62,784 bases of DNA from Burkholderia sp. Bp8992 (lineage in GTDB: Bacteria; Pseudomonadota; Gammaproteobacteria; Burkholderiales; Burkholderiaceae), in the NCBI RefSeq assembly GCF_003853705.1, contig NZ_QTQI01000036.1:1-62784 (forward strand). The letters are read 5' to 3'. Numbering within the stretch: position 1 is the stretch's first letter; the number at the start of each line of letters is the position of its first letter. The position numbers and the translations under genes are program-made. Positions 1,104-18,681 of the stretch are shown piece by piece. The notes beneath the pieces were generated by a model that saw nothing but the letters and a program-made list of their open reading frames with translations, made no database searches and was not told the origin of the DNA.

Positions 1104-1146
1104 GTCAGCGCTCTCCCTGCCGTAATACCCGTCGCCCCGCCGGATG

Positions 1147-2532
1147 TCAGAACGAAGCGAGCCATAGATAGATGAACAACGTGTCGTTGTCCCTCGCGTT
1201 GCGTCCGTTGCCGTCGTAGTTGGTCGTCGCGCCGAGGTACTTGGTGAAATGCGTGTACTGGATGCCGACGCGCACGTGCTGATCCGGCATCCAGAATATT
1301 TCCGGCGTCCAGCCCTGTGTATTCGGATGGAAGTTCGCGCTCGCCGCATAGGCAGTACTGTCCGCGGTCCCCGTCGTATTGAAGAACGACAGGCTGACGC
1401 CATACTTGGCCTGGTAGATGTACGACGCCTTGAGCCGCAACGAATTCAGGTTCGCGGCCGTGTTGTCGCTCACGATGAAATTGTTCGGATCGTGAATGTT
1501 CTCGCGCACGTAGCGCGCTTGCGCGGTGATCGTGTGCGGCTCCAGCAGGTACTGGTACTGCGTGTCGAAACCGTAGTCGCGATAGCGCGTCACGCCCGAG
1601 CCGAAGATCGGAAAACTGTTCGGATCGTTCGGATAGACGTCGACGCTCAGCCCGAACGCGCCGACCATCAGGCTGTGCGGGCCCCAGTCGCGCGTCAGCG
1701 CGATGCGCGCATACGGGTTGTAGCCGCGCAAATAGACCTGCGGGTGGTCCGGATTGCCCGCGTGGTTGCCCTTGCTCAGGAACGACCAGATGCCGTCGGC
1801 CGTGCTGTAGGCGGTCAACTCCGCATAGACCGTCTTGTTCCAGTACAGGTATCCGCCCATGCCGACAACCTGCATCGCGAGACCGCCTTCGATGATCGGC
1901 GTGACCGGCACGCCGGCCACCGGGCTGATCGCCGAGCCGATGTACGGATAACTCCAGGCCGGCGCGGTATTGAAGACGTCCTGCACGGTGGGGTTGTTGT
2001 GCAGCGTCAGGCCGAAGATCAGATCGTTGGCGGGTGACATGATCCGGTCGACGAAGCGGAAGTCGGTGTTGTCCGATGCCCACCAGCCTTTCCATTTTCC
2101 GTTGGCGTCCTGATGATCGTAGTTCGTATAGGTGAATTGCGCGAAGCCGCCGAGATGGTCGGTGATCTTCCCGGCGAGGAACACGCTCGCGAAGTCGAAG
2201 ATCGGCAGGCCGTTCTTCGGCGTGACCGGATTGCCGCTGGCGTCGCTGTTCGCTCGCGTCTTGCTGAGGTCGCCTATCGCCATCGCCGCGAGCGGAATCG
2301 TGCGCTCGCCCAACGTGTAGCCGTTCAGCTTGAACAGGCGCCCGTACGGCGTGAGTTCGGGGAACTGTCCGCCGGCATGGCACGCGACGCAGCTCTGCCC
2401 CGTCTGGCGCGCGAAGATCGGCAACGCGTGCCCGACGGACACCTGCAGCATCGCGAGCGCCGCGATCACGATCATCCAGCCGCGATGCAGCCAGCGATGA
2501 CGCATGTCACGATCGACAGGAAACGTTGTCAT
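1147..2532 (-). CDS. Outer-membrane beta-barrel protein with N-terminal c-heme motif
   Basis: 461 residues. A signal peptide (hydrophobic core MIVIAALAMLQVSVG, cleavage near residue 35) is followed at once by one heme motif, CVACH (residues 48-52). The rest consists of alternating beta-strand-like segments rich in aromatic residues and Asn/Gly and ends in F (LFIYLWLASF), typical of an outer-membrane barrel. Similar heme-tagged barrels occur in cytochrome/multicopper oxidase loci of metal-cycling bacteria; the function in Burkholderia is not established as far as I know. Start chosen at the ATG at 2532 because GGGGAAAA lies just before it; the ATG at 2505 is an alternative that still keeps the signal. 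Between the diheme cytochrome (44 bp downstream) and the heme/PBP fusion (159 bp upstream). Inference: a porin-cytochrome-like conduit across the outer membrane. Confidence 0.75.
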   Translation of the reverse strand: MTTFPVDRDMRHRWLHRGWMIVIAALAMLQVSVGHALPIFARQTGQSCVACHAGGQFPELTPYGRLFKLNGYTLGERTIPLAAMAIGDLSKTRANSDASGNPVTPKNGLPIFDFASVFLAGKITDHLGGFAQFTYTNYDHQDANGKWKGWWASDNTDFRFVDRIMSPANDLIFGLTLHNNPTVQDVFNTAPAWSYPYIGSAISPVAGVPVTPIIEGGLAMQVVGMGGYLYWNKTVYAELTAYSTADGIWSFLSKGNHAGNPDHPQVYLRGYNPYARIALTRDWGPHSLMVGAFGLSVDVYPNDPNSFPIFGSGVTRYRDYGFDTQYQYLLEPHTITAQARYVRENIHDPNNFIVSDNTAANLNSLRLKASYIYQAKYGVSLSFFNTTGTADSTAYAASANFHPNTQGWTPEIFWMPDQHVRVGIQYTHFTKYLGATTNYDGNGRNARDNDTLFIYLWLASF

Positions 2533-2691
2533 GGCTGTTTTCCCCCTCACGCGGTGTGCACCGCGCTGCGCCACCGCGACATCGGAACGTCGCGCGATGA
2601 CTTCATTGTGCGAAGCGCCCGCGAGAACCGGCATGGGGAGACTTCCTCCATACACGGTCTGATTCCTCCCCCATCTCGACGCGCGCTCCGC

Positions 2692-4380
2692 TCAGGGAAC
2701 GATCCAGTCTCCGTCGGCGGCGATCTTCGTGCGGTCCGGCCCGGCAAACCGGACGATATAGCCGCCCTTCGACGCGAAGCGCTGCCCGGTCGCGAGCGTC
2801 AGGCGCGGGTAGTAGCCGGTCAGGATGCGGCGTTCGAGCATGTCCTGGATGCGCTCGACCAGGTACTCGCGCACGAACGCGTCGACCACGTGGCTCAGCG
2901 TCTCGGCGAGCAGGCCGCACGCGAGATAGGTATCCGCCTGCACCTGCGGCGCGACCATCGGAATCTTCCGGATCGTGAACCAGCCGAACGCATAGTCGAC
3001 GCGCACGCGCCGCCCTTCGGGCAAGTCGAACGGATAGGCGACGCGCGTCACCGCGCGCCAACTCGTCGGCAGCGGCGTGCTGTCGAGCCCGCCGAGCAGC
3101 CCCGACATGAACACGGTGTCCGCCGCCGGCGGCACGTGCTCGAGCGCCGCGAGGTCGGGCGGCCGCAGCCACAGCACGAGCACGTCGTCGCGCGGCGTCC
3201 GGCGCAACGCGCGCGCGACGCCGTCGCGCGGGGCGAGCGCGTGATTCGACACCGCGATGCCGCGCGCCTTCAGTACGGCTGCAAGCGCCTGTGCGCCGCG
3301 CTCGCCGTTGTCGCCCGCGCGATAGACTTGCCTGACCGTCTTCACCGGCCGCGCGCCGGCTTCGTCCAGGATGCGCTTCGCGATCAGGTCCGACTCGAGC
3401 AGCACGCCGCGCGAGAAGTACACCGAGTAAAAATCGTGATCGGTCTCGACCGGCACTTCGACGTTCGGAAAGAGGCACGGCACGGCCTCCGCCTCGCAGA
3501 AGTCGTGGACGGGCGCCCAGTTCCGGCCGCCGAGCCCCGACACCACGGCCAGCACCGGCTGCCGCTCGAGATACGCGTTCAGTTGCGCATGCCACGTGTC
3601 CGGCGGCCCGGTGAGCGACCAGACGTGCAGTTCCCAGCGGCGATTGACCATGAACATCATTTTTCGCGTGGAACGCAGCGGCGGCGTCGTGCCGAACGGA
3701 AACGCGTTCTTGTCCGCGAAGTAGTGCTGCAGGACGTCGAGCATGCCCGCCCGCTTCACCGGGTCCGCGTCCGGCGTGACGATCGTCGCGAAATGCAGCA
3801 CCGTGTCGGTCACGCCCGACGGCTTGCGGCGATCGAGACGCTTCAGATAGCCGGTCAGCGCGGCCATGTCGGCGTCGCCGAGCGCGTATTGCGGCATCAG
3901 TCTGCCGAGCGGCCTGCCTTCCGGATCGATCCCGTCACGCACGGCACGCGCGAGCCGTTCTTCCGTGTACGGCTCGCGATCGGTGCGCATGCCGGGAACG
4001 TACGGGATGTCGAGATCCTCGGCGGTCTGCGCGCGCGGATGCACCAGGTAGCGCCACGTGACCGGCGGGATGATGTTGTTGCCTTCCTTCGAGCCCAGCC
4101 CGCTGCGCCGATGGCAATTGATGCAGGCGGCGGCGGCCCCTTTCAGGCGCACGCCGTCCTGATGCACGGCTTCGAGCGGCGCGCCCGAACCGAGGATGCC
4201 GCGCTGGAAGATTGCCTCCCCCGCGTCCGCCGGCACGGCGGGTGCCGCTGTCTCGTCGCCGATCGCGTGACCTGCGCCCGCGCACAACGCGGCCAGCACC
4301 ACCCACCGCGCCAGCTGCCCGCGCGAGACCGGCAGGCACGCCGCCGCGAGGGCGCGCGCTCGCCCCCGGATGCCGTTCAT
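2692..4380 (-). CDS. Periplasmic cytochrome c fused to a type I periplasmic-binding-protein domain
   Basis: 562 residues. After an uncleaved-looking basic leader and hydrophobic segment (about 24-40) comes a cytochrome c domain with a single heme motif CINCH (residues 86-90) and LMPQYALGD near residue 160, where the Met is a candidate axial ligand. From about residue 190 to the C-terminus the sequence looks like a two-lobed type I binding protein of the branched-chain amino acid (LivJ-like) class, with segments such as LAVVSGLGGRNWAPV and FYSVYFSRGVLLE. ATG at 4380 overlaps the TGA of the upstream LolA-like gene (ATGA), so translation is probably coupled. The fusion of a heme domain with a ligand-binding fold is unusual. 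Role unknown: a heme-linked sensor, or a docking subunit of the oxidase complex. The domain call is by eye. Confidence 0.72.
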   Translation of the reverse strand: MNGIRGRARALAAACLPVSRGQLARWVVLAALCAGAGHAIGDETAAPAVPADAGEAIFQRGILGSGAPLEAVHQDGVRLKGAAAACINCHRRSGLGSKEGNNIIPPVTWRYLVHPRAQTAEDLDIPYVPGMRTDREPYTEERLARAVRDGIDPEGRPLGRLMPQYALGDADMAALTGYLKRLDRRKPSGVTDTVLHFATIVTPDADPVKRAGMLDVLQHYFADKNAFPFGTTPPLRSTRKMMFMVNRRWELHVWSLTGPPDTWHAQLNAYLERQPVLAVVSGLGGRNWAPVHDFCEAEAVPCLFPNVEVPVETDHDFYSVYFSRGVLLESDLIAKRILDEAGARPVKTVRQVYRAGDNGERGAQALAAVLKARGIAVSNHALAPRDGVARALRRTPRDDVLVLWLRPPDLAALEHVPPAADTVFMSGLLGGLDSTPLPTSWRAVTRVAYPFDLPEGRRVRVDYAFGWFTIRKIPMVAPQVQADTYLACGLLAETLSHVVDAFVREYLVERIQDMLERRILTGYYPRLTLATGQRFASKGGYIVRFAGPDRTKIAADGDWIVP

Positions 4381-5207
4381 GGCCGTACCGTCGGCCGGCC
4401 CGCGCCCGGCGGGGCCGGCGATACGCGCGCATCGAGCGACGCCGGACGGCGTCCGCCCGGCGCGACGGGCCGGGCGAAGAGCGCGTCGTCGAGGGGCGGA
4501 TTCAGCGACACCTTGTCGATGATCAGCGTGTCCTTGGTCGGCGAGGCCGCCGTCCCGCTCTCGATCCTGAGCGGGATTTGCAGGCCGTCGATGAGCTTGA
4601 AGTTGCCATAGTTCACCTCCACCGTGAGCGGGCCGGTCGGCCCGCGCACCTGGCGGTCGGCCTTCACGTCCAGGAAACTCCGCCCGTCGATCCACACGTG
4701 CCGTACCGCGCCGGACGGCAACTTCACCGCCAGGCGGTACGCATCGTGCCCGCCGATCCGGTCGACGCCGTCCAGCGTCACGCCGATGCCCTTCGCATCG
4801 TGGTCGAACAGCGGGCCGTCGATCACCTGCTCGTCGCGCGCGGACATCAGCTCGCCCGGCGTATACGGCCGCAGGCCGGCGCTGACGCCCGCGGCCTGTT
4901 TCCAGCCTTCGCGGCCGTCGAACACGCGCACGGCCTTCTGGTTGAGCACGGTGATCTCGAAGCGCGTCTTGTTCGGCCGCTTCATCGCAAGGACGAACGG
5001 CATGTCGCGCACGGGCGCGTTCGGGCTGTCCACATGGCCCGACCAGACCATCGTCCGGACCTTGCGCCACGCGTCGAGCCCGCCTCTCGCCGCGATGTTC
5101 TTCTCGACGATCTGGTCCACGCCGAGGCCCTGCCCCGGCAATTGCTCGCACCCGCACAAGGCCGCCATCGCGCAGCCGGCGAGCACCCACGATCCGATCC
5201 GTCCCAT
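4377..5207 (-). CDS. LolA-like outer-membrane lipoprotein-sorting family protein (itself a lipoprotein)
   Basis: 276 residues. The N-terminus ends in a lipobox (AALCGC, Cys near residue 20). The body follows the LolA/LolB-like half-barrel pattern also seen in the next gene: an IVEKNIAARGGLDAWRKV opening, LAMKRPNKTRFEI, an AVRVFDGREGWKQ strand and a YTPGEL helix. It ends in an Ala/Pro/Arg-rich tail. Such proteins bind acyl chains or lipoproteins in the periplasm, but this branch is not classical LolA. The ATG at 5207 has GAGGTGA upstream; the gene is 5 bp after its paralogue and overlaps the next gene by 4 bp (ATGA). About 35-40 percent identity to the neighbouring paralogue by eye suggests a tandem duplication followed by divergence. 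Inference: chaperone for lipidated or outer-membrane components of this cluster. Confidence 0.72.
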   Translation of the reverse strand: MGRIGSWVLAGCAMAALCGCEQLPGQGLGVDQIVEKNIAARGGLDAWRKVRTMVWSGHVDSPNAPVRDMPFVLAMKRPNKTRFEITVLNQKAVRVFDGREGWKQAAGVSAGLRPYTPGELMSARDEQVIDGPLFDHDAKGIGVTLDGVDRIGGHDAYRLAVKLPSGAVRHVWIDGRSFLDVKADRQVRGPTGPLTVEVNYGNFKLIDGLQIPLRIESGTAASPTKDTLIIDKVSLNPPLDDALFARPVAPGGRRPASLDARVSPAPPGAGRPTVRP

Positions 5208-5212
5208 GGTCG

Positions 5213-6052
5213 TCACCTCGTCCGGGTCTCGGCCGGGTGACTCGGCGCCTTCGCGAAAGTGAGCGGCGGCTTGCCGAACATCGTGTCGTCGGCCGGCTCG
5301 TTGAGTGCGACGTGCTCGATCGTGATCCGGTGCGTCTCCTTGACGCCGCTCACGACGGTCTCGAGCGTGTGCGGCATGACGAGGCCGTTTTCCTTCCTGT
5401 AATCGCGATAGAGCACGGCGACGCCGTGCGTCTTGCCGTCCAGCACGCGCGGCTCGCCATCGATCTTCAGTTCGAGAAAGCTCGACGCGTCGACCCACAG
5501 GCGGCGCGACGCGCCGTCCTTCGACGTCAGCTTCAGCACATACGCGCGATGCCCTTCCACCTGCTCCATGCCAAGCGCCTGGATCGTGGTGCCCTTGTTC
5601 GCGTAGTCGATCAGCGGACCGTCGAGTTCGGCCGACGACGCGGCGGACTTGAGTTGCGCCGGCGTATACGGCTCGACGTCGTTGCGGCCGAGGTACGGCC
5701 GGACCAGCCAGCCCTGCGAGCCGTCGTACACCTGCAGCGCGGTCTGCTGCTCGAACTGGATTTCGAGCCGGCTCTTGTGCGGCCGCTTCAACGTCAGCGT
5801 GAACGGCAGCCTGACGTTCTTCTTGCCGCCCGCATCGAGCTGCCCCGTCATCCTGATCGACGACACCGCCCGCCACGCCTGCAGCCCGCCACGGGCCGCG
5901 ACATTGCGCTCGGCGATCTGCGCCGCGTCCATATGCGACGCCGACGCCGCCTGCGCATTCCCCGCCGCCGAGGCCGCGGATGCGACCTGGCCGCAAGTCA
6001 ACAAGCCGGCGGCACACGCCGCCGAAATCGACTTGAAAAGAAACCGGTTCAT
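5213..6052 (-). CDS. LolA-like periplasmic protein (paralogue of the next gene)
   Basis: 279 residues with a Sec signal peptide (hydrophobic core AACAAGLLTCGQVASA) and a Ser/Ala-rich linker. The LolA-like core shares landmarks with the downstream paralogue: IAERNVAARGGLQAWRAV, LTLKRPHKSRLEIQF, LQVYDGSQGW, YTPAQL. Unlike its neighbour it has no clear lipobox at the cleavage point, so it is probably soluble in the periplasm. A lipidated and a soluble paralogue side by side recall the LolA/LolB division of labour; that is an inference. The ATG at 6052 is preceded by GGGGAGAG (reverse strand) at good spacing. 63 bp separate it from the upstream exported protein gene. Confidence 0.74.
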   Translation of the reverse strand: MNRFLFKSISAACAAGLLTCGQVASAASAAGNAQAASASHMDAAQIAERNVAARGGLQAWRAVSSIRMTGQLDAGGKKNVRLPFTLTLKRPHKSRLEIQFEQQTALQVYDGSQGWLVRPYLGRNDVEPYTPAQLKSAASSAELDGPLIDYANKGTTIQALGMEQVEGHRAYVLKLTSKDGASRRLWVDASSFLELKIDGEPRVLDGKTHGVAVLYRDYRKENGLVMPHTLETVVSGVKETHRITIEHVALNEPADDTMFGKPPLTFAKAPSHPAETRTR

Positions 6053-6115: not shown

Positions 6116-6619
6116 TTACTCGACCACCAGCCCGTCGATGTGCAGCGAATCGATCAGGATGCTGACCCGTTCGCCGCGCTTGATCGGCCCTCCCTTGTTG
6201 GAAAACACCATCCAGTACTCGTGTCCGGTCTCGAGCTGGCCGGTCTGCCGCAGCGCGCCGATCTGGTCCATCACCGGAATCACGAGCATCGCGTGGCTCG
6301 TTTCTCCGTACAGATAGACGGTCGCCTTCGTGTCGGCGAGCAGCCGCGCCTTCTCGGGATCGGTCACGCGGTAGCTGAAACGGATCAGGTTGCCCGACGC
6401 GGTGCTGCGCACGTGCAGATCGTCGACGCCCTTCGCCATCTGGTAATAGGCCTTCGCCTGCCGCGGCAGGCTCACCGGCAGGTAAGGCGAGTGCCGGCCA
6501 GCCGCCGGCTTGGCCGGTGCATCCTGCCCGGCCGCGGCCGGCTGAGGCCGGACCGCGGCGAGGCTCGCACCGCCCGCGAGCAGCAGCATCGATGCCGCGC
6601 GGAAGGCCGCCCGTTTCAT
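6116..6619 (-). CDS. Small exported protein of unknown function
   Basis: 167 residues. Signal peptide with core SMLLLAGGASLAAV, an Ala/Pro linker, then a compact beta-rich region beginning YLPVSLPRQAKAYYQMAKGVDDL and ending with ERVSILIDSLHIDGLVVE. No family is recognised; segments such as GNLIRFSYRVTDPEKA read like a small beta-sandwich. There are no Cys or heme motifs. The ATG at 6619 overlaps the stop of the giant protein gene by ATGA, so it is almost certainly co-translated with it. This tight coupling suggests an accessory or chaperone function for the giant exported protein (inference). Confidence 0.68.
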   Translation of the reverse strand: MKRAAFRAASMLLLAGGASLAAVRPQPAAAGQDAPAKPAAGRHSPYLPVSLPRQAKAYYQMAKGVDDLHVRSTASGNLIRFSYRVTDPEKARLLADTKATVYLYGETSHAMLVIPVMDQIGALRQTGQLETGHEYWMVFSNKGGPIKRGERVSILIDSLHIDGLVVE

Positions 6620-9600
6620 CGCATCGCTCCCGTAAGCGGCGCGGGTAGCGCCTGCGCCGGGGTCGGCGCAGGGAGCCGCACGGGCGGCAGCGCGCGTGTC
6701 TGTGCACGTGTCTGCGCAGGCGCCTGCGGGCGGGCGCGCGGCGGCACCCTGGCCGGGGCCTGCAGCAGCGCATTCGACGGCGGCCGCGCCAGCGCCGGAG
6801 ACTGCCCCAACGCGCCGGTCGGCAGCGGCCGAGTCGCCCTGGGGGCGAGCCGCGCCCCTGCCTGCAGCCGCCTCAGCGCCGGTGCCACGATCGGCGGCAG
6901 CGGCGCGCCACCGTTGAACAGACCCGGGATTCCGCCGATGCCCGGGATTCCGCCGCCCGGGAAGCCGTGTCCGCCCGGGAATCCGCCTCCACCCGGGAAG
7001 CCACCACCACCCGGGAAGCCGCCATGGCCCGGCGGGAGAAGTGCGGCCAGGCCGGTCAGCTGGCTCCCCAGTGCGAGCGGGTCGATCGGCGTGCCGCCAC
7101 CGAGCAGGCCGCCGAGCAGGCCGGGCGCCACGTACTCGACCGCGCCGATGTCGTAGCCGTTGCCTTGCGGCCGCGGCGTGCCGAAGAAATCGTGGTTCGG
7201 CGCGCCGGATGCCGTGGCCGCCCCGATCGCCGGCGACGAGCCCTTGATCGAGTAGTTGCCCATCATCACGTTGTAGCCCGCGCTGCCAGGCGTGAGCGCC
7301 TCGTTGAACAGCGACAGCGGCCCGTACGACATGTTGATCCACTGGTTGCCTTCATCGGGCGTGGCCGCCGGCATCAGCCCGAACAGCGGGTTCGGCAACA
7401 CCGCGTCGGCGATCCCGGGCGGTACGGCAAAGCCGTTCCCGCCGGCTTCCGGCGGCACGCGCGAGCCGTTGCAGTACTGGCTGATCGTCTGCGGGTCCGA
7501 TGCCTTGTTGGTCGCCGCATAGCCCGCCGTGCTGGTCATGATCGAGTACTGCGGGTTCATGGTCAGCCCGGACTGGTGATTGGCCGGCCCGGTGTCGCCA
7601 TACGCGCCGATGTCCCAGTAGAACGGCGGGGTCGTGCCGCCCGTCACGCAGAAGCCTGTCGATTGCCCCTTCTGGTTCAAGGTCGGGTTCAGCGTGACCG
7701 CGTTCTGCACGCCGGGGATGTTCGGGTTCGGCTGCGAACTCACCGAGATGTAGAACGAGCGGTTTTGCCAGAACAGGTTGTTGCTCAGCACCGGGTTCGA
7801 GAACTTCGTGCAGTTCGGCTCGTTCGCGGGACAGGTGATTTGCCCCGTGAAACCCGCGGGCGGGACGAACGCCGTCATCAGGTTCTGCGTATGCGTCGCC
7901 GTCTCCAGTCCGGCCGGCTGCTGCGTCGATGCCTCGATGAAACTCGTGCAGGTCGACTCCGCGCTGTTCGGGCTGCTCGTGCATCCGGGCGGCGCCACGT
8001 TCGACTGCGCCGCGGCCGGCGTATTGAAGAGCACGCCCGCCGACGCCGTCGCATCGTTCGCGATCACCGTGTTGTTGATGAAGCTCACGCGCACCGCATC
8101 CTGCAGCGACACGCCACCGCCCGACCAGCCGGCCACGTTGTTCGCGATGATGTTGTTGATCACGCGCACCTGGTACCACTTGTTCGGGTTGCCGAGATTG
8201 CGTTGCACCTCCGTGCCGTTGACGTTCTGCAGCCGCAGGCCGCCGCCCTTCCCGCTTTCCGCGGTATTGCCCATGATCAGGTTGCCGTCGATCACCAGAT
8301 CCGGGCCGATACCGTCGGACAGCTGCGGCGCGCAGTCGACGTCGACGAGGCTGTTCTCGCAGAACGTGCCGTCGGGCGGCACGCCCTGCGCGATGATCCC
8401 GCCGCCATACGTCGGCAACGTCGGGTTGTTGCTCTGGTTGAACAACACCACGTTGTGCGACAGGTCGCCGTTGTAGCTGAACCCGAAGTGCGCGACGCCG
8501 CCGCCGTCACCGCTGGTCATGTTGCCGCAGACCCAGTTGTAGTTGAAGCGGTAGTAGTCGGCGCCCGTGCAGAGCGTCACACCACCGGCCGAAGACGGCG
8601 TGGTCGAGTTGATCTCGTCGCCATACGACGCGTTTGCCGTGACGGCGTTGTGGTGCACGTTGACGAACGTGTTGTACATGAACGGCAACTGCGTCACGCC
8701 GTCCGCGGCGATGTTGGCGTCCGGCACTTCCACCTGGCCGACCGTGATGCCGCCCGACAGCGTGCCGGCATTACCGGTCACGCGGTTGTTCGAGACCTCC
8801 GTGTAATGGTTCCAGCCGTGCAGGAAAATCCCGCCGCCGCCCTGCGAGCTGTTGGTGACCGTGACCCCGTCGATGCGCGACGGGTTGCACAGGAAGTTGC
8901 TGTAGTTCGGGTTGTTCGGATCCGTCGTGCAGTCGTGCGCCGTGAGCAGCGTGCAGATGCCGTTCGCGGTGCAGTTCGTGCTCGGCTGCACACCCTTGGC
9001 CAGCACCGTGATGCCCGCACCTTCGTACGCGCCCATCAGCGACGGTTCGATCAGCAGCTCGCCCAGGTTGCCGTTCTGCGTGCTGTCCCAACCGACGGTC
9101 GGTTCGAACGGAATCGGGTCCACGTGCCCCTGCATCTGCGTCGAACACTGATAGGTGCCTGACGGATCGTACGGGTTGTTGGTCGGCGAGATCGGCTTCG
9201 TCGAGTCGTACGTGGACGAAATCAGCCCGCCGTCCAGCGATGTGCCGAACAGGCACGCGATCAGCCTGCGCCACGGATCGAGCTTGCCGGACGGATGCGT
9301 ATTTGCATTGATCGTCACCGACGCGGCACCCACGCCTTGCAGCCGCACCGGCTTCCACATCACCAGCATCTCGTTGTACGTGCCCGGACCGACGACGATC
9401 ATGTCGCCCGCGCTCGCATTGTTGATCGCGGTCTGGAGCGCATTGCTCGCACCGTTCTCGCCGCTCACGTAGGTCGGCGCCTTGCCGCCGATCGTCACCG
9501 TGATCGCATCGATCGACCGCTTGCCGTTGCCGGCCGTGATCACGAGCTCGCCGCACTGCGTCGCGGGTGCGCCCATCTGCTGGATCGTGCAGGTCGACGG

Positions 9601-12600
9601 CACCTTCAGCGACGGGAGCGACGGCAGGCTCAGGTCAGGCGCGAGCACGACGATCTTCGAGTCGCTCCACGACACGACCGGCGCATTGACGCCCGCGATC
9701 GTGACCGTGCCGGTGCCCTGCGTCGCGCCGAAGCCGTAGTGGCGCGTGATGAACTTCTGGTTGAACGGCGCCGCGGTCTGGCTCGGTCCCGTATACGCGT
9801 GGTTCACCACCTGCTGGTCGCCCAGCGCGTTGATCGTCAGCGGCTTGCCTGGCGCGCTGACCCACGGGCCCGCACCTGCGCCGATCGTGTCGCCGGTCAC
9901 GCTCGAGATCGCCGGCGTCGCATCCGGATACGCGCAGTCGGGCTGGTTGTAGCCGTCCGCGAAGGACTGCACCGGCACCACCGGCGTATCCATGTACTGC
10001 GTCTGTCCGGGCATGAACGGAATCTCGTAACAGAACTGGCTGTATGCCGGGTTGTACAGCGGATCGGTCATCGTCTTGCCGGGGTGCTGCGGATCGGGGA
10101 TCGGGCCCGGATCGTTCATGCACGTGACCATCATCGTCGGCGCATAACCGGTCGGGTTCGGGGGGTTCACTTCCCAGGTCGAGAACGTCAGTCCGTTATA
10201 GATGCCCCATTGATCCGTGTAGGTGCGCGAGACTTCGTTGCCGGAGAAATCCTTGAACGAGACCGGCACGTTCGGCACCGCGAACTTTTCGCCGAACTGC
10301 GGCGAATACGGATCGAACTCCGACGAGAAGTCGTCGAGCATGAAGCCCGTGTAGTGCGCGCTGACATGCGTCGAGCTGAAGACCCAGAACTTCGCGAGCA
10401 CCGATTCCTCGTCGGTCAGCATCACCTCCTTGCGATCGCACAGATGCCGGGACGCGCCCGCGAACGGTGCGACTTCCTTCGATCCCGGGAACAGGCTGAT
10501 GTAGTCCGGCACGATGCGCAACTCGCCGACGCACGGCCAGAACCGCTCGACGCTGCCGGTGTCGCCTTCGGCATGCGGCGTCGAACCGAGGTTCGTGGTC
10601 GGGTTCTGCGGGTTGTTCTTGTTGTACGTCGAATTCACCGCGGCCTGGTCGGGGAGGATGAAGATCGCACCGATCCCGCCGAACTGCTGCGTCACCGGAG
10701 CGATGTAGTTGTCGCCGATCAGGATGTTCTTGTCTTCCTCCTTCACCAGTTCGTAGCCCGGCGGCACGATGATCTCCACCACGTACTTGCCGGCAGGCAG
10801 CATCGGCGTGCCGTCGACGGGATTCTTCCCGACGCAGATCGTGCAGTTCGACGCGACCGGCTTGCCGTTCGCATCCGTCGCCGTCACGCTCGGGAACTTG
10901 TACATCCCGTCATACGGCGCCGGCTGGATCTGGTTGAACGCGTGCATGCCGTCGTAGCACTTGTACTGTGCGTTCGCGGGCAGCTGGCGATGTTGCGGGT
11001 CGAGCCAGTTGGTGCTGTTCTTCAGCGTGAAGTAGAACGGGTCGTTCGGATCCTGGCCCGGGCAGTTCATGTTCGGCGTCACGCCGTCCGCGCGGAAGCC
11101 CTGCGCCCAGTCGTCCCAGCTCGCCGTCTTGGTCGTGTCCACCAGCGTCAGGTTGGTCGTGCCGTCCGTGGCCGTGCCTTCCTGGTACAGGTTGACCGTG
11201 ACGTTCGGCACATTGGGCGTCCACTTCGTGTGGATCAGCAGCGTCGGATCGTCGAACGGCCGCGTCGACGCATAGATCACCTCGCCGCGTATCCCGCCGT
11301 TCTCGCCCTTCGCGAACGGCGCCTTGCCGTACTCGATGAACGAGTTCTGGCCGGAGAAGCCCTGCCATGCCTCCGTGGTCACCCAGGGCGGATCGACCCG
11401 CCCGGTCGATCCGCTGCCGGTCGACGCGCAGTCCGCGTCCGCGCAATACCGGGCGCCCGGCACCCGCAGGTTCGACGGCAGCGGCAGGGTTTCGGCCGTG
11501 TTCGCGAAGTTCGCGGCCAGCGTCGAGTTCCCGCTGCCGGCAGCGCCGGTGCCGTCCACCGGACCGCCCGCGTCGTACACCACGTGCGTGCCGGTCGACT
11601 TGAAGCGCGTCAGGTCGTCGTCGACCACATACCAGTTGAACAGCGGAAACACTTCGTTGAACGGCGCGTAGCCGTTGCCGTCCGTGTTGTTGAAGTTCGA
11701 GAAGCTGCCGTCGCGGAACCGCATGTTGACCGACGCCAGCGCGACGCCGGGGTCGTCAGGGTGCGAGATGCCGTCGCCGTGCAGGTCGATGAAGGTCCGC
11801 GTATAGAGGTTCGTATGCCACTGCAGCACGGACAGGTCGCCGACGTCGACCGTCGTGCTCCCGTTGGCCGCGGGCAACTGCACCGCCTTGGCCAGCCCGT
11901 CGACGATCTGGTCGTTCCATTGATCGAACACGGTGATGCGCGTCGTGCCGCTCGGCAGGCCGCTGATCGTGAACCGGCCCTGGCTGTCGCATTTCGTGAA
12001 GCCGTAATCCTCGCTGTCCGGATCGCCGACGCTCACATAGCATTGCGAGAACGCCAGCGAATCGCGCGATCCGCTGCTGTACAGGTTCTCGTTCGGCGGG
12101 CGGCTGTAGTGCAGGTTCGTCACGCGGCCCGTGAGCGTGTTCGGGCACGGACCGGTGTCGCATATCCCGGTCTTGGCCGCGTTGGTCCTGCGCCCGTTGA
12201 TGATCTTCGGATTCGCGAAGCCGATCGACACGTGATAGCCGGCCGGCCCGAACTCCTGGAAGTACGCGGGGCCGCCGACCTTGATGAACGCGTCGTGCGC
12301 CTTCTGTCCGTCGAGCGTGTTGGTCTGCAGCCATTCCTCGCCGCGGCCGATCCGGTCGGCCGCCGGTGTCGCGATCACGCCGTAGCGGCCCGGCATCAGG
12401 TTGGCGATGATCGCCTGGCCGACGAGCGGCGACAGCGTCTTGCCGTCCGATTCGTATTTCGGGCAGGTCGGGATCATGCCGACCAGGCCGTCGGTCGCCG
12501 TCGAGATCGGGCATGCGTTGAGCCCGGTGAGCGGATCGATGGTGCCCTGCAGCGAATTCGACAGCGGCATGTTGAACATGTCGTAGGTCATCTGTCCGGT

Positions 12601-15363
12601 CGGGTCGCCGGTGCCGCCGGCATCGTCCCAGAGCTTGATCTCGAATCCGCCGAGCCCCGGCTCGCGCGAGGTGCCGAATCCGTCGGACCCGCCGCTGACA
12701 TCCACTTCGCCGTTCAGCGGCGCATCGTCCTCGAACACGAACACCGACAGCTTCGCGGTCTGGTACGGCGTTTCAGTCAGCAGCACGTTGAGCTGCCCGG
12801 CCTGTCCGGCGCCGGTCTGCCCTGCCTTCGCCGCCGCGATCTGCGCGGGCGCGATCGGCGCGCCGCCCATGCCGTGGCCGCACTTGCCGGTGCCCGGCGC
12901 GAAATCCGCGCCGCTCGGGCCCGACGGGCAGTCGAGCGCGATGCTGAATTGCCGCTTGCCGTCGGGCGACACGCCGCCGCCGTTCGTGAACGTATTGCCC
13001 GCATCGCCGGGCAGGATCGAGATGTAGTAATGCTTGGTCGGATCGAGCGCCACGTACTTCGGATCGACCGGCGTCTGTTGCGAGACGCTCGGGCCGGTAC
13101 GGCACACGCCGTTGCCGACGTCGCACACGGTCGCCACGTGCGTGTTGGACACCGGGTCGTACACGGTCTGCCCGGATTCGCATGCGACGGTGCCGACGCA
13201 GCCCGCCGCCACCACCGGCATGTAGCTCGTGTGGAAGTTCGTGCCGAGACTCGGGACCGGCAGCGGCGGGCAGTTCGCCGGCCTTCCTGTCGCGGAATTC
13301 ACCTGGCAGGCCGGATCGATCTGCATCGTGCGGTCTTCCTCGATGATCCAGCGATAGTCGGTGAGCTTGACCGCCTTGTTCGGCGCGGTCGCATCCGGCG
13401 CCATGCTCGGCGCGTCCATCACGTTCACGACCAGCCCGCTGCCGGGATTGAACGTGACCGTCACGGTCCCTGCATTCGCGCTCGTCTGGTTCTGCGTATT
13501 GGTGACCTTGTACTGGAACGTCATCGTCTGCGCCGCCGCGCCGTTGCCGACCCGCGGCGTCGTCGGCACCGCGGTAAACGAGCCGTCGGGATTCAGCGTC
13601 ACGGTGCCGTTCGTCGCGCTCGACGCGACGATCTGCGCGGTGAGCGGCAGCCCGGCCGGATCGCTCGCACTGGCGAGCACGCCGGGCGCGCCGATCTGAA
13701 CCTGCGACGCGATGTTGCTCGAGAAGCTCGCATTGCCGGCCGTGGGGACCGACAGGCACTTGTTGCTCGTGGTGCAGGCGGTCAGCGTCACCTTCGCCGT
13801 CACCGGCGGCGTGCCGTTGGTCGACTGATAGACGAAACTGTCGTTCGCAGTGCTACTCGACAGATACGTGAACGTACCGTCCGTATTCAACGTGAGCGTG
13901 CCGCTCGCGGGCGGCGTCTGGACCTTCACGCCGTACACGCCGGAGTCGCTCGCGATCACGCCCTTGGCCGGATCCGACACGGCAAGCGTCGTGCCCGGCA
14001 CGAAGTAATAGTTCGCGCCCGCGGCGGTCGGCGTTTCGCCGATGCCGGCAGTCGCCGACGGTTGGGCGTTGTTGACCGCGATGTAGCCCTGCATCCCGCC
14101 ATCGCGCATATTGTTGGTCGACAGGCTCAACTCGCGGTCGTACACCGGCATCGCACCTGCGGCCGGCGCGTTCAGCATCACGTCATAGGTCTTGCCGGCC
14201 GCCATGAACACGGCGTTCTGGATGCGCGCGGCGCCGGGAATCACGTTGCCGTCCTCGGCGACCAGCGTGAAGCCGGGAACGGACGGATTGCCCGTTTGCG
14301 CGCCGACCACGGCCGGAACGTGCATGCGCAGCCCGGCGTTCACCAGGCGCACGAGCACCTGCCCGGTCGACGGCGGCACGGTCGCGCTCGGCGGGAAAGC
14401 CGACGCGTTCGGGTTGGTGCGATCGAAGGCCACGCCGTTGATCAGGTAATAGCGCGGATCGTAGTTCACCACCGGCGGATAGCAGGTGCCGAACGTGACC
14501 GACTTCGAGTCGCCGCACCCGCCGGGCTGGCCCGACCACGCAGCGGTTTCGCTGAAGCCCTTGGTCGCGACGGCCGCGGCAACCGCGGCGTTCTGCACCG
14601 GATCGATCTCGCCCATCACGAGCGGCACGTCGGCGTCATAGCAGGACACCGAATTCGGATAGGCCTGTTTCGTCGATGCGCACGTCGAACTGGGGACGGT
14701 CGGGCTCTTCACCACCAGCACCCCGTAGAGGCCCATCGGCCCCTGGATCGACGGGTGCGTGCCCGACTCGAGCAGGTAGGTGCCGGGCTTGAGATTGGCC
14801 CAGGTGAGCGTCGTGTGCGATTTCGGATCGGTCGACGGTGCCACCTCGGTCCCGAACGACTGGACGCGCGGCCCCTGCGCGGGCGGCACGAACGATGCCA
14901 GCGGCGCGGTCGATGTGGCCGTGACGATCGGCCAGGTCGTGGCCGTCTGCGTCGGATGGACCGGGCTCGGCGTGGTCGTCGGCTTGTCGCCCAGACCGCC
15001 GCCCAGCTGGCCGACGATCACGAGCGAGGTCGGCACGGGCGCCGGCAGGTTGTTCGTCAGGTTGATCTGCAGCTGCCCTGCCGGCACGGTGACGACCACC
15101 GGCGACCAGTTCGCGCCGGCGGCCGGATTCGCCGCCGCGCAGGTGGCGTTTGCCGCCGGCACCGTCGCGTTGGCGGCCGTCGTGCAGGTGTAGCCCCACA
15201 TCGGCACGGCCTGCCCGTCCGGCATCAACGCCGTGGACGCCTTCGCCGTCAGATTGACGACCGCCTGCGCGAAACAGGCTTCGCCTGCCGTCAGCAAGAT
15301 GGATGCCGCGACCCCCGCCTTGAACAGATCAAGGAGCGTCGCCGTGAGCTTGGTGGATCTCAT
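6616..15363 (-). CDS. Giant secreted modular protein with degenerate multicopper-oxidase head and beta-helix (MofA-like)
   Basis: 2,915 residues. Signal peptide (cleavage near residue 32, ..ACFA-Q). Residues ~35-440 follow a two-domain cupredoxin/multicopper oxidase pattern (LTNNLPAPVPTSL, GPMGLYGVLVV, YYLINGVAFD, VFMAAGKTYDVML), but the usual His ligands are replaced: TSLVIVGQ where TSLHxHG is expected and LLESGTHPS where WYHSH is expected. Residues ~450-680 hold two cadherin/Ig-like repeats, ~900-1600 SdrD/carboxypeptidase-regulatory-like modules, ~1880-1960 an IPT/TIG-like domain, ~1970-2750 a right-handed parallel beta-helix with many NN turns. The tail is Gly-rich (GGFPGG repeats) then Pro/Ala/Arg-rich. 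The ATG at 15363 has GGGGAGAAAGG before it; a GTG five codons upstream is less likely. The architecture recalls large MofA-type manganese-oxidation proteins of Leptothrix, from memory. Function: surface or secreted scaffold (inference). Confidence 0.72.
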   Translation of the reverse strand: MRSTKLTATLLDLFKAGVAASILLTAGEACFAQAVVNLTAKASTALMPDGQAVPMWGYTCTTAANATVPAANATCAAANPAAGANWSPVVVTVPAGQLQINLTNNLPAPVPTSLVIVGQLGGGLGDKPTTTPSPVHPTQTATTWPIVTATSTAPLASFVPPAQGPRVQSFGTEVAPSTDPKSHTTLTWANLKPGTYLLESGTHPSIQGPMGLYGVLVVKSPTVPSSTCASTKQAYPNSVSCYDADVPLVMGEIDPVQNAAVAAAVATKGFSETAAWSGQPGGCGDSKSVTFGTCYPPVVNYDPRYYLINGVAFDRTNPNASAFPPSATVPPSTGQVLVRLVNAGLRMHVPAVVGAQTGNPSVPGFTLVAEDGNVIPGAARIQNAVFMAAGKTYDVMLNAPAAGAMPVYDRELSLSTNNMRDGGMQGYIAVNNAQPSATAGIGETPTAAGANYYFVPGTTLAVSDPAKGVIASDSGVYGVKVQTPPASGTLTLNTDGTFTYLSSSTANDSFVYQSTNGTPPVTAKVTLTACTTSNKCLSVPTAGNASFSSNIASQVQIGAPGVLASASDPAGLPLTAQIVASSATNGTVTLNPDGSFTAVPTTPRVGNGAAAQTMTFQYKVTNTQNQTSANAGTVTVTFNPGSGLVVNVMDAPSMAPDATAPNKAVKLTDYRWIIEEDRTMQIDPACQVNSATGRPANCPPLPVPSLGTNFHTSYMPVVAAGCVGTVACESGQTVYDPVSNTHVATVCDVGNGVCRTGPSVSQQTPVDPKYVALDPTKHYYISILPGDAGNTFTNGGGVSPDGKRQFSIALDCPSGPSGADFAPGTGKCGHGMGGAPIAPAQIAAAKAGQTGAGQAGQLNVLLTETPYQTAKLSVFVFEDDAPLNGEVDVSGGSDGFGTSREPGLGGFEIKLWDDAGGTGDPTGQMTYDMFNMPLSNSLQGTIDPLTGLNACPISTATDGLVGMIPTCPKYESDGKTLSPLVGQAIIANLMPGRYGVIATPAADRIGRGEEWLQTNTLDGQKAHDAFIKVGGPAYFQEFGPAGYHVSIGFANPKIINGRRTNAAKTGICDTGPCPNTLTGRVTNLHYSRPPNENLYSSGSRDSLAFSQCYVSVGDPDSEDYGFTKCDSQGRFTISGLPSGTTRITVFDQWNDQIVDGLAKAVQLPAANGSTTVDVGDLSVLQWHTNLYTRTFIDLHGDGISHPDDPGVALASVNMRFRDGSFSNFNNTDGNGYAPFNEVFPLFNWYVVDDDLTRFKSTGTHVVYDAGGPVDGTGAAGSGNSTLAANFANTAETLPLPSNLRVPGARYCADADCASTGSGSTGRVDPPWVTTEAWQGFSGQNSFIEYGKAPFAKGENGGIRGEVIYASTRPFDDPTLLIHTKWTPNVPNVTVNLYQEGTATDGTTNLTLVDTTKTASWDDWAQGFRADGVTPNMNCPGQDPNDPFYFTLKNSTNWLDPQHRQLPANAQYKCYDGMHAFNQIQPAPYDGMYKFPSVTATDANGKPVASNCTICVGKNPVDGTPMLPAGKYVVEIIVPPGYELVKEEDKNILIGDNYIAPVTQQFGGIGAIFILPDQAAVNSTYNKNNPQNPTTNLGSTPHAEGDTGSVERFWPCVGELRIVPDYISLFPGSKEVAPFAGASRHLCDRKEVMLTDEESVLAKFWVFSSTHVSAHYTGFMLDDFSSEFDPYSPQFGEKFAVPNVPVSFKDFSGNEVSRTYTDQWGIYNGLTFSTWEVNPPNPTGYAPTMMVTCMNDPGPIPDPQHPGKTMTDPLYNPAYSQFCYEIPFMPGQTQYMDTPVVPVQSFADGYNQPDCAYPDATPAISSVTGDTIGAGAGPWVSAPGKPLTINALGDQQVVNHAYTGPSQTAAPFNQKFITRHYGFGATQGTGTVTIAGVNAPVVSWSDSKIVVLAPDLSLPSLPSLKVPSTCTIQQMGAPATQCGELVITAGNGKRSIDAITVTIGGKAPTYVSGENGASNALQTAINNASAGDMIVVGPGTYNEMLVMWKPVRLQGVGAASVTINANTHPSGKLDPWRRLIACLFGTSLDGGLISSTYDSTKPISPTNNPYDPSGTYQCSTQMQGHVDPIPFEPTVGWDSTQNGNLGELLIEPSLMGAYEGAGITVLAKGVQPSTNCTANGICTLLTAHDCTTDPNNPNYSNFLCNPSRIDGVTVTNSSQGGGGIFLHGWNHYTEVSNNRVTGNAGTLSGGITVGQVEVPDANIAADGVTQLPFMYNTFVNVHHNAVTANASYGDEINSTTPSSAGGVTLCTGADYYRFNYNWVCGNMTSGDGGGVAHFGFSYNGDLSHNVVLFNQSNNPTLPTYGGGIIAQGVPPDGTFCENSLVDVDCAPQLSDGIGPDLVIDGNLIMGNTAESGKGGGLRLQNVNGTEVQRNLGNPNKWYQVRVINNIIANNVAGWSGGGVSLQDAVRVSFINNTVIANDATASAGVLFNTPAAAQSNVAPPGCTSSPNSAESTCTSFIEASTQQPAGLETATHTQNLMTAFVPPAGFTGQITCPANEPNCTKFSNPVLSNNLFWQNRSFYISVSSQPNPNIPGVQNAVTLNPTLNQKGQSTGFCVTGGTTPPFYWDIGAYGDTGPANHQSGLTMNPQYSIMTSTAGYAATNKASDPQTISQYCNGSRVPPEAGGNGFAVPPGIADAVLPNPLFGLMPAATPDEGNQWINMSYGPLSLFNEALTPGSAGYNVMMGNYSIKGSSPAIGAATASGAPNHDFFGTPRPQGNGYDIGAVEYVAPGLLGGLLGGGTPIDPLALGSQLTGLAALLPPGHGGFPGGGGFPGGGGFPGGHGFPGGGIPGIGGIPGLFNGGAPLPPIVAPALRRLQAGARLAPRATRPLPTGALGQSPALARPPSNALLQAPARVPPRARPQAPAQTRAQTRALPPVRLPAPTPAQALPAPLTGAMR

Positions 15364-15380
15364 CGCCTTTCTCCCCACCC

Positions 15381-17030
15381 CTAATTGGATTCGTCGATCG
15401 GAAATACCGGAGGATCAACGAGCATCATCATCATCATTCCGCCCGGGAAGATGTTGTTCGTCGTGATCTCGCGCTCGTTATGCGAGTGCCACATGAACGC
15501 GAAGCCTGCTTCCGTCGCCGGCGGGTTCAGGATCGTGTTGCTGGGCGGCGACGTGCCGGTCGGCGCCGTCGCACGCACGGTCGCGTCCGGCCCGAGATAC
15601 GGACTGCCGCCATACCAGAAACCGTTCGTCAGGATGTTCGAGTCCGGCAACGTGACCGGCCCGCCGCTCGCGACCTTGCCGAACGGCGCCTTCTCGAGCG
15701 CCTTGCCGTGGTCCTGGCACCACTCGTAGTAGTTCGGCGCGCTGCGCGGCGCCGGCGGATTCGACGCCGTCGTGTAGTAGCCGTTCGCGTCCGGCACGCA
15801 GACGGAGCCGTCGCCCGCGTAGTGCGCGTAGACGTCCCAGTTCAGGCCCTTGCCGGTCCAGTAGAAAATCCCGTCCATCGTCGCGCCCGGCGTCGTGGTG
15901 GTCGTGAACAGCAGCGGCCCGGCCGGCTGCCGCGGGTTCGCCGGGTGGCTCGGGTCGACCGGGCTGAGCAACAGGTTGCCGTCGCGCGCCAGCACGCGCA
16001 CGTGGTTGCCGTGCTCGTGGAACGGATGCTGCCAGCGGCCGGTGCCGATGATCCGCAGCAGCACCAGTTCGCCCGGATGCATGTGCGGGTTGCCGTTGTA
16101 CGGCTGGTGCGGGTACTGCGGCGCGTAGTTCGGATCCATGTCGTCCGGCATCGAGCGGCCGTTGACCATGAAATAGGCCGGGTGATACGGCTCGGTCTCG
16201 ACCGTCATGCAGCCGGTCGGCTTGGTGCACGACGTATTCGCCGCGACCTGCTGCTCCGCCTGCTGATGGATGCGCGGATCCATTTCGGAGAACTGAAAAA
16301 GATACTCACGGTCATAGCAGGCGGCGCTGTTGTCGAATGCCGCCACTGCGTTGCGGAAATCGCGCTGGCCGAACGGCCGGCCCGAATCCGGCAGCGCCAT
16401 GCAGCCCGCCGTGTTGACCGCCGTATTCGGCAGCACGATGATCGCACCGTACATCCCCATCTCGATCTGCAGGTCGCCCTGCGTGCCGCTGTAGTACGCA
16501 TGCGTACCCGGCGTCGCCGCGACGAACGTATAGGTGACCGTCGCGCCGTGCGGCGCTTCCTGCGCCAGCAGCCCGGCAACGCCGGAGGTGCCGGTGCAGG
16601 TCTTGCCGTCCGGGCTCAGGGTGCCCGTGCACACGACGAAGCCGGGAAACAGCATCGACGTGTTGCCGGCCGCCGCCGGCAGGTTGTTGGTGAGTGTCAC
16701 GGTGATGACGTCGCCCTGCCTGACGATCAGCGTCGGACCGGGAATCTGCATCGTCGGACAGGTCGCACCGGTAATCGTCGACGGCGAGAAGACGAGCGGC
16801 GTCGCGCTGGTCGCCGCGCAGCCGTAGCCCCACGAATAGACGCTCGTGCCGTCCGGCTGGGTGATGCGCGCCTCCTGGGCCGTGAGGTTGAAAACCTTGC
16901 CGGCGATGCCCGGCGCGGCGGCTTGCGCGTGCACCGACAGCAACGCGGCGAGCGTTGCGACGCCGACGCGTGCGAGCCGTCCGAGACGGGCGAGCGTCGC
17001 GGTCCACGCATGATGAGTGATGTGTCCCAC
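15381..17030 (-). CDS. Multicopper oxidase-like protein with C-terminal copper-ligand pair only
   Basis: 549 residues, exported (hydrophobic LARVGVATLAALLSVHAQA). The GTG start at 17030 is supported by AGGAGA eight bases upstream. The fold follows multicopper oxidases (PGPTLIVRQGDVITVTLTNNLP, later YFMVNGRSMPDD and GELVLLRIIGTG). The N-terminal copper positions are lost: TSMLFPG where an HxHG is normal and YYSGTQGD where HSH is normal. The C-terminal pair is present: HPFHEHGNH (about 333-341) and WHSHNERE (about 511), the latter with Ser in place of the type 1 copper Cys. A Met run (GGMMMMMLV) follows near the C-terminus. On its own it should not form a complete blue-copper site. It lies 67 bp after the companion oxidase and 17 bp before the giant protein. 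Confidence 0.8.
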   Translation of the reverse strand: MGHITHHAWTATLARLGRLARVGVATLAALLSVHAQAAAPGIAGKVFNLTAQEARITQPDGTSVYSWGYGCAATSATPLVFSPSTITGATCPTMQIPGPTLIVRQGDVITVTLTNNLPAAAGNTSMLFPGFVVCTGTLSPDGKTCTGTSGVAGLLAQEAPHGATVTYTFVAATPGTHAYYSGTQGDLQIEMGMYGAIIVLPNTAVNTAGCMALPDSGRPFGQRDFRNAVAAFDNSAACYDREYLFQFSEMDPRIHQQAEQQVAANTSCTKPTGCMTVETEPYHPAYFMVNGRSMPDDMDPNYAPQYPHQPYNGNPHMHPGELVLLRIIGTGRWQHPFHEHGNHVRVLARDGNLLLSPVDPSHPANPRQPAGPLLFTTTTTPGATMDGIFYWTGKGLNWDVYAHYAGDGSVCVPDANGYYTTASNPPAPRSAPNYYEWCQDHGKALEKAPFGKVASGGPVTLPDSNILTNGFWYGGSPYLGPDATVRATAPTGTSPPSNTILNPPATEAGFAFMWHSHNEREITTNNIFPGGMMMMMLVDPPVFPIDESN

Positions 17031-17097
17031 GGCTTTTCTCCTCAGGGCAGGACTTCCCGGCCGGGCCCCGCCCGCTGCTGCGGGCGGGCCCTGGTCA

Positions 17098-18681
17098 TCA
17101 AAGAGTGCAGTGCTTCGTGACCGGGTCCACCGCGCTGCAGATGTGGACTTCGGTCATCAGGCCGCCGAAGTTCTCCTGATCGTTCGACAGGTGATCGAGG
17201 TTCGGCGTGTACAGGTAGAAAATCTGGCCCGAGTGGTACTTCGTCTTGTCGCTGGCGTCGAGAATCAGGTCGAGCGACTCGCCGCCTCCGAGCGTGATCG
17301 AGTTCGTGTCGTAGGCCATGTTGTTGCCGGCCATGTCGCGCAGCATGCGGGCGTTGATCGCGATCACGTGCATCGGGATGCCGAGCGACGCCAGCGTCTG
17401 GTATTCGGTCACGTCGAGATCAGAGATCCGCAACAGCGCGCGGCCGCCGGCGGGAATGTTGATCAGCGTCGACAGCGGTTGCGACGGATGCATCGAACTG
17501 TCCGACGCCGGCGTCGACATCGCCCCTTCTGTCACCGTGTCCGGATAGCTGCGGCCGTTCAGCAGGAAGAACTTGTCCTTCATGTCGGTGAACGGCTCGG
17601 GATTGAACGTCATGCCGACGAAGTGGAAATTCGGATCGAAGCCATGGATCTGGATCGGATACTCGACGTCGTACGCGGTCGAGCCGTCACCGTCGTTGTA
17701 GGCGTAGAGCGACAGCGTTTCGGGCGTGGTCGCCGGAATGTTGGCGTTGGCCGCACGCACGAGGCCGTTGTTCTGCGGCGGCAGCGGCGTCGAGCACAGG
17801 ATGTCGTTGCCGCAGCGCGTGCGCAGGTCCGACTGCTGCGTCACGAGCGCCTCGTACAGCGACACGCCCTTCGGCACGCGATCCTGGCGCGGCCGCACGT
17901 AGATCTGGCCGACCATGCCCATCTGCAGGTGCTCCGGCGGCGTGATGTGGCAGTGCCAGAAATAGGTGCCCGCATCCGGCGCGAGATAGTAGTACGTGAA
18001 GCTCGCGCCGATATTGATCGCGACCGACGCGTCCGGCACGCCGTCATAGAACGACGACGCGTTCGGATAGCCGTGGAAGTGCACCGTATGCCTCTCGAAC
18101 AGGTCCGGGCGCATGATCATCCCGACGTTCGTGAGCGTGAGGAAGAACTCGTCGTCCTCGTCGATCGCCATCAGCGGCGCGGGCTGGTTGCCGTTCATCA
18201 CGCCGATGTCCATGATCGGGCGCGGATCGACGTGGCCGGTCAGCGCACCGCCTGCATCCGGATCGGGCGCGAGGCCGACCGCGCCGTTGTAGGTCGGGTC
18301 CGTCCTGGGATCGCCGACGGTGTTGAACACCGACGCGAGCTGCGTGCCGGGCAGCCCGGCCTTGACGTCCGCGAGCCCGGACAGCGGGCCGAACGCGAAC
18401 AGATAGGTCTGCACACCGTTGGCCATCGTGGCGTAGCCGTCGCCGCCCGAGATCTGCTGGCACTTGATCGCCCCGTTCACGGTGCCGGTCGACGTGGAAG
18501 TCTGGCCGGTGTAGGTCGGCTTCGTGTAGGCGGGTTCGCCGACACCGGGCGCCAGCGCGGTCGGATGCGACGGCGTGGTGAACGGGCACTGGACGCGGAA
18601 CGACTGGGCGAACGAGGGAACGGCGCACATCAGGAGCAACAGTGCCGCCACACTGCTGCAACACGCGCGGGTACTGAACAT
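17098..18681 (-). CDS. Multicopper oxidase-like protein with N-terminal copper-ligand pair and type 1 Cu motif
   Basis: 527 residues. Signal peptide MFSTRACC..LLLLMCAVPSFA-Q. The first cupredoxin domain carries HTVHFHGYPN (about residues 196-205) and GTYFWHCHITPPEHLQMG (about 238-255). These supply two HxH pairs plus the Cys, His and Met of a type 1 copper site, as in two-domain laccases or nitrite-reductase-like proteins. The C-terminal domain (FLLNGRSYPD, ALLRISDLDVTE, LGIPMHVIAINARML) lacks HPxHxHG and HCHxxxH. The missing ligands are those kept in the next gene. The ATG at 18681 has GGAGGTC at ideal spacing; the frame is open for another 76 codons upstream but without a ribosome site. It is the first gene of the cluster, so its upstream region should hold the operon promoter. 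Confidence 0.82.
   Translation of the reverse strand: MFSTRACCSSVAALLLLMCAVPSFAQSFRVQCPFTTPSHPTALAPGVGEPAYTKPTYTGQTSTSTGTVNGAIKCQQISGGDGYATMANGVQTYLFAFGPLSGLADVKAGLPGTQLASVFNTVGDPRTDPTYNGAVGLAPDPDAGGALTGHVDPRPIMDIGVMNGNQPAPLMAIDEDDEFFLTLTNVGMIMRPDLFERHTVHFHGYPNASSFYDGVPDASVAINIGASFTYYYLAPDAGTYFWHCHITPPEHLQMGMVGQIYVRPRQDRVPKGVSLYEALVTQQSDLRTRCGNDILCSTPLPPQNNGLVRAANANIPATTPETLSLYAYNDGDGSTAYDVEYPIQIHGFDPNFHFVGMTFNPEPFTDMKDKFFLLNGRSYPDTVTEGAMSTPASDSSMHPSQPLSTLINIPAGGRALLRISDLDVTEYQTLASLGIPMHVIAINARMLRDMAGNNMAYDTNSITLGGGESLDLILDASDKTKYHSGQIFYLYTPNLDHLSNDQENFGGLMTEVHICSAVDPVTKHCTL

Follow-up and report, generated by a model that had tools for sequence, protein, structure and literature searches.

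The 62,784-nucleotide stretch of Burkholderia sp. Bp8992 analysed here (contig NZ_QTQI01000036.1; referred to as the window) contains three consecutive minus-strand genes, termed A, B and C, which are transcribed in the order A (18,681 to 17,098), B (17,030 to 15,381) and C (15,363 to 6,616). Genes A (17,098..18,681) and B (15,381..17,030) are two-domain multicopper-oxidase paralogues, each with Pfam matches to Cu-oxidase_3 and Cu-oxidase_2; the coordinates given for both frames in an initial annotation of this DNA were right. Gene C (6,616..15,363) consists, according to library scans, of a two-domain head without copper ligands and a large body; a further minus-strand feature (14,053..15,318) lies inside its span. 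The most plausible start of A is the ATG at 18,681, the longest frame opening at a GTG at 18,909. B starts with GTG, and the 2920-amino-acid frame of C opens with a GTG at 15,378 and has an ATG at 15,363. The intergenic gaps are 67 bases (A-B) and 17 bases (B-C) long and, by eye, each contains a purine-rich stretch ahead of the start. All three proteins have, again by eye, a signal-peptide-like N-terminus, that of A ending in ...FAQ. In the one annotated record examined, A, B and C are all labelled 'hypothetical protein'.

In these soil bacteria, four copper-ligand pairs normally found in one oxidase appear to be divided between A and B. Domain 1 of A carries HTVHFHG and WHCHITPPEHLQMGM, which would provide a type 1 site (H198, C244, H251 and M256) and a trinuclear half-site made of the HxH pairs H201/H203 and H243/H245. 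Inspection of its C-terminal domain revealed neither HxxHxH nor the second HxH pair. Domain 2 of B carries HPFHEHG (H338/H340) and WHSH (H515/H517), with a Ser (S516) at the position of the type 1 Cys, and the N-terminal pairs are missing. Summed over both proteins, there are four HxH pairs plus a single type 1 set, just as the initial annotation had read them. The assignment of the type 1 and trinuclear residues rests on the pattern published for the family and on alignments with 2zwn and 3g5w, not on measurement.

Relatives of B in genome contigs were used for comparison, namely the best 80 of the 131 loci found; L001-L011, which partly duplicate the genomes of L021-L100, were excluded from the locus counts. 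The A ligands H198, H201, H203, H243, C244, H245, H251 and M256 are invariant in 77/77 rows of alignment A1 (window and 76 of the 80 loci), always without the C-terminal pair. The B residues H335, H338, H340, H515, S516 and H517 are likewise invariant in 79/79 rows of alignment A2 (window and 78 of the 80 loci), none of which has the N-terminal pairs or the type 1 Cys. Rows were omitted for A in L058, L069, L070 and L100 (cut at contig ends, L100 also having a stop) and for B in L051, owing to an internal stop, and in L069, whose protein duplicates another row. Deeper sets showed the same invariance with 30/30 A (identity down to 38%) and 30/30 B sequences (down to 39%), and the split was kept in divergent sequences as well (12/12 A and 12/12 B, the B of L131 covering domain 2 only). 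Given that the ligand halves are invariant in 77/77 A and 79/79 B rows, the split is not due to chance. As a control, nine other multicopper oxidases from the same search (L012-L020) had HxHG, HxxHxHG and HCH in a single chain in 9/9 cases, the pattern used for the fourth motif matching just 1/9 of them.

The lost sites can be read residue by residue. The A and B profiles align with an E value of 2e-11 and a probability of 97.3%, and opposite HTVHFHG and GTYFWHCH...H....M of A, B reads NTSMLFPG and GTHAYYSG...Q....M. At the domain-1 ligand positions of A, B carries T124, L127, P129, Y180, S181, G182 and Q188; at the domain-2 ligand positions of B, A carries I435, x438, [IV]440, Y491, T492 and P493. 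These replacements are mostly conserved, and every dead pair is incomplete. The head of C, a third copy of the A/B module, contains no HxH pair at all. It was aligned for the window and 75 of the 80 loci (alignment A3), C being absent or too short at contig ends in L068, L083 and L095, and L052 and L072 likewise giving no usable row. The motifs T-S....G and S-G-T....Q..MG are shared by the two inactive first domains, those of B and C, and suggest that the loss of the domain-1 ligands was common to both.

Besides its head, which is predicted to adopt the two-domain fold shared by trimer-forming oxidases and the nitrite reductase NirK (NirK matching equally well as 3g5w), C comprises cadherin-like, SdrD-B-like, beta-helix and choice-of-anchor Q segments. 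The frame is 2,455 to 3,609 codons long in 70 of 78 cases (window and 77 loci); the remaining eight are shorter, cut or broken. Head and body are not always joined. The body with its cadherin, SdrD-B-like and beta-helix parts is fused behind C in the main set and in L129-L131, C stands alone as a short gene in L133 (393 amino acids), L134 (349), L136 (341) and L137 (427), and the body is a gene of its own adjoining A in L103, L133 and L135-L140. In L134 (5854-12699, minus strand), a single frame of 2281 codons contains the body followed by A. According to the common reasoning on gene fusions, this swap links A, C and the body, and the C head is therefore not merely the anchor of the body.

The initial annotation had asked whether the complementary losses are conserved and always paired, which is the case in the sets examined here, contig ends apart. 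A lies upstream of B on the same strand in 80/80 loci, and C follows downstream of B in all 77 loci with a strong C match, the other three (L068, L083 and L095) being cut at contig ends. The hosts belong to Burkholderia, Paraburkholderia, Trinickia, Cupriavidus, Collimonas and Pandoraea and include a few Acidobacteria isolates, the best named relatives being from Burkholderia; in addition, there are metagenome-assembled genomes labelled Acidobacteria, Beta-, Gamma- and Deltaproteobacteria and once Actinobacteria, labels that may be wrong. Of the genomes compared with the window, the nearest one, G001, has 33% of the sampled 31-letter words in common with it. A, B and C are also consecutive in 11/11 divergent cassettes (L103, L129, L130 and L133-L140), L131 and L132 being contig pieces of a single genome. 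Internal stops are rare, with 1/92 A, 1/92 B and 3/89 C frames. Long B frames in L061 (1109 amino acids) and L067 (778 amino acids) were considered as A-B fusions and rejected, as their upstream extensions are not in frame with A; each A frame ends in its own stop and a fusion of A and B was seen in 0/80 loci.

Whole genomes gave the same result. Full-length B was found in 11 of 61 related genomes and A in the same 11; among 398 genomes, B was present in two and A in the same two. Of 247 genomes of the phylum of G452, 13 had B and 14 had A, the fourteenth A (G601:C221) beginning 9 bases from the start of its contig. In the 14 genomes reached via the loci, every A match adjoins a B match, and one genome (G454; L075 and L130) possesses five A-B cassettes, one of which is divergent (L130). 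One B gene is apparently split across two contig ends and an extra B in G465:C131 is truncated by the end of a 4044-base contig. Thus, lone homologues of A or B with the same losses were sought in the 80 loci, the 61, 398 and 247 genomes and the 14 locus-reached genomes, and none was found away from contig ends. For the sets of 398 and 247 genomes, at most 3 and 5-6 first-look candidates per genome, respectively, were scored, so that more copies could be missed. The E cut-offs were 1e-40 (1e-20 as printed) for B in these two sets, 1e-20 for the A searches, and 1e-15 and 1e-20 for the 14 locus-reached genomes.

Among solved structures, 3g5w, the blue copper oxidase of Nitrosomonas europaea, is the best match to the profiles of A, B and the C head. 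Together with the metagenome laccase 2zwn it belongs to the type C two-domain oxidases, in which each chain likewise consists of two cupredoxin domains, both with HxH pairs, and the type 1 site is in domain 1, as in A. A and B resemble them in the two cupredoxin domains of each chain and in the restriction of type 1 ligands to the N-terminal domain (A in 77/77 rows, with S516 in 79/79 rows of B). Type C enzymes are, however, encoded by one gene and form homotrimers with equal centres, whereas here no chain has all four HxH pairs (two in A, two in B and none in the C head), the ligands are located on two of three paralogues and one centre is possible. Three-domain laccases do not fit either, as A has HCHx5Hx4M and HTVHFHG in one domain and HxxHxH is found in B. 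NirK has a three-His type 2 site in place of the trinuclear centre. No such site was recognised here; both HxH pairs in domain 1 of A are complete in 77/77 rows and B holds two pairs in domain 2. Six-domain oxidases such as ceruloplasmin and MnxG are likewise built from three two-domain units and have at most a single trinuclear centre, but in a single polypeptide, while A, B and C are separate frames with the type 1 copper ligands and a half-site in domain 1 of A. According to a passage in PMC3600357, no more than one of the three ancestral trinuclear centres survives in these proteins, which would be the covalent counterpart.

Two-domain oxidases are described as trimers in passages of PMC13151041 and PMC3192119, with the trinuclear centre of a type B enzyme lying where domain 1 of a subunit adjoins domain 2 of its neighbour, and are typed there by where the type 1 site is located. 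Each subunit of a homotrimer faces domain 2 of its neighbour with its own domain 1, giving three identical copper centres. As two-domain oxidases are trimeric and a ligand-free paralogue follows B, the natural unit would be three chains, and a third ring member is proposed because a ring of A and B alone must repeat one of them. We consider it likely that A, B and C form one A-B-C hetero-trimer which replaces the usual homotrimer and has one four-copper site, and the C head probably completes this 1:1:1 ring. The interface between domain 1 of A and domain 2 of B would be the only one with ligands, namely eight His in pairs (two pairs from each chain) next to the type 1 copper in A. At the interfaces of B domain 1 with C domain 2 and of C domain 1 with A domain 2, the ligand pairs would be gone from both faces. 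The C head would serve as a structural wedge and as a tether to the giant body, and the ring, once loaded with copper, might reduce O2. An A-B-C ring thus explains every ligand loss interface by interface. The proposal of the initial annotation that A and B constitute an obligate hetero-oligomeric oxidase appears to hold with regard to their mutual dependence, which is indicated by the complementary invariant losses and the co-occurrence; its two-chain picture seems incomplete given the third paralogue C. A possible path would lead from a homotrimer to A and a B/C ancestor and from the latter to B and C, in this presumed order. In the V-ATPase, Vma3, Vma11 and Vma16 show a similar transition from a homomeric to an obligate hetero-ring through complementary losses. 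Their ring is a membrane rotor and not a redox enzyme, whereas the losses are legible here residue by residue at copper ligands.

Some single residues detract from a fully clean pattern of ligand loss. A single His is kept at position 438 of A in 45/77 rows, and His occurs at position 180 of B in 1/79 rows (3/30 deep rows) and at position 184 of C in 1/76 rows (4/30 deep rows). Moreover, H333 of C, the counterpart of H335 in B, is kept in 65/65 A3 rows reaching that position. One may also suppose that the copper site of A and B is real with C outside the ring, A and B forming a dimer or having another stoichiometry and C being only a surface scaffold. We regard this as unlikely. All live ligands are indeed in A and B, and C is mostly body in Burkholderia. 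However, the C head is predicted to have the fold of trimer-forming oxidases and NirK, some divergent cassettes encode C as a short gene on its own, the body can be joined to A in place of C, a ring of three built from A and B alone must repeat one of them, and the ligand loss on both faces of C fits a third ring member.

If A and B acted separately, A could be a homotrimer for type 1 electron transfer or similar to nitrite reductase, and B could bind or store copper. The complete type 1 site in A alone would be in agreement with this, as would NirK being a two-domain protein that matches the C head as well as 3g5w does. Yet H201 and H245 of A fit a trinuclear half-site rather than NirK, A has no domain-2 pair, B has a half-site only, and each half is invariant with the genes adjacent in 80/80 loci, which makes separate action improbable. 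An origin of A, B and C as split remains of one six-domain oxidase of the MnxG or ceruloplasmin type instead of a triplicated two-domain protein seems improbable, too. Such proteins are regarded in PMC3600357 as sets of three two-domain units that retain no more than one trinuclear centre, but the order A-B-C does not match the six-domain order with its centre between domains 1 and 6. The prokaryotic centre lies between domains 2 and 3 according to the same source, as opposed to domain 1 of A and domain 2 of B here, and all three profiles have a two-domain enzyme as their closest relative of solved structure. Finally, half of the ligands have been lost from each of A and B, as might be expected from decaying duplicates, i.e. 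pseudo-enzymes losing their function. This is hardly conceivable, as the remaining halves are invariant from Burkholderiales to metagenome-assembled genomes labelled Acidobacteria and few frames contain internal stops.

Clustering of neighbouring genes was inflated by antisense frames and only neighbours confirmed by tblastn were used. Downstream of C, all on the minus strand, tblastn revealed a conserved small protein of about 162 amino acids (6,119..6,616) that was matched in 43/80 loci, many of which end shortly after C, and in 7/11 divergent cassettes. It is followed by a LolA-like protein (5,213..6,052; Pfam match under the curated cut-off) and a second one (4,392..5,198) which has no Pfam match of its own and was recognised through tblastn similarity to relatives of its neighbour. 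A protein with a cytochrome c domain and a solute-binding-like region comes next (2,692..4,374); its relatives are found beside cassettes in Burkholderia, Cupriavidus, Paraburkholderia and the divergent L103, L133 and L135. The following 502-amino-acid protein (1,147..2,655) has one CxxCH heme motif close to the N-terminus (FARQTGQSCVACH) and, by eye, a C-terminal part that looks like a barrel and ends in Phe. The protein is reminiscent of fused outer-membrane cytochrome-porins such as Cyc2, but it had no convincing match in Pfam, NCBIfam or the PDB. A diheme cytochrome c with a lipoprotein-like N-terminus by eye (432..1,109) and, beyond it, the start of a membrane protein complete this side of the window. 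Five downstream genes, the LolA-like pair not being queried, are in the same order in 6/6 genomes of the same genus (L141-L146).

On the other side, an RND efflux adaptor (NCBIfam MdtA/MuxA; 20,526-21,905, plus strand) is oriented divergently from the cassette and followed by two large frames (21,921-25,034 and 25,038-28,346). A PcaR/PcaU/PobR-like IclR regulator (19,448-20,272) lies between the adaptor and the cassette.

A type II secretin is encoded within the fetched flanks of 11/80 loci and also in L103, and genes for a GspE-type ATPase, a secretin and pseudopilin-like proteins precede the cassette of Cupriavidus metallidurans CH34 (L107, 6145-14231); within the window, no match to a type II secretin was detected. 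As cytochromes c and the type II secretin adjoin cassettes, the surroundings suggest that the oxidase is secreted and close to an electron-transfer chain. By analogy, Mn(II), Fe(II), Cu(I) and phenolics are candidate substrates, which would be extracellular. More tentatively, the one-site hetero-trimer derived from a three-site homotrimer might be secreted by a type II system, tethered to the beta-helix body and wired to the outer-membrane and periplasmic cytochromes c of the same cluster, oxidising an extracellular metal ion or phenolic compound in an electron-transfer chain; we consider this possible, but doubtful.

No description of a hetero-oligomeric two-domain oxidase of this kind was found in the titles and abstract starts of the open-licence PMC literature. 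While fold and chemistry are already known, the division over three chains is new as far as searched. Surveys based on ligands would miss A, B and C, which may be explained by the full motif set being in no single chain and by the hypothetical label of the genes in the record mentioned above. Two-domain multicopper oxidases have been described as homotrimers encoded by a single gene. In the present case, the ligands are divided in the same way throughout distantly related bacteria, which have also retained a third paralogue lacking ligands. Such a natural enzyme, in which one interface would be active and two would be silent, would be useful for learning why two-domain oxidases keep three sites. 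If true, it would provide a clear example of how a homomeric enzyme ring becomes an obligate hetero-ring, readable at single copper ligands.
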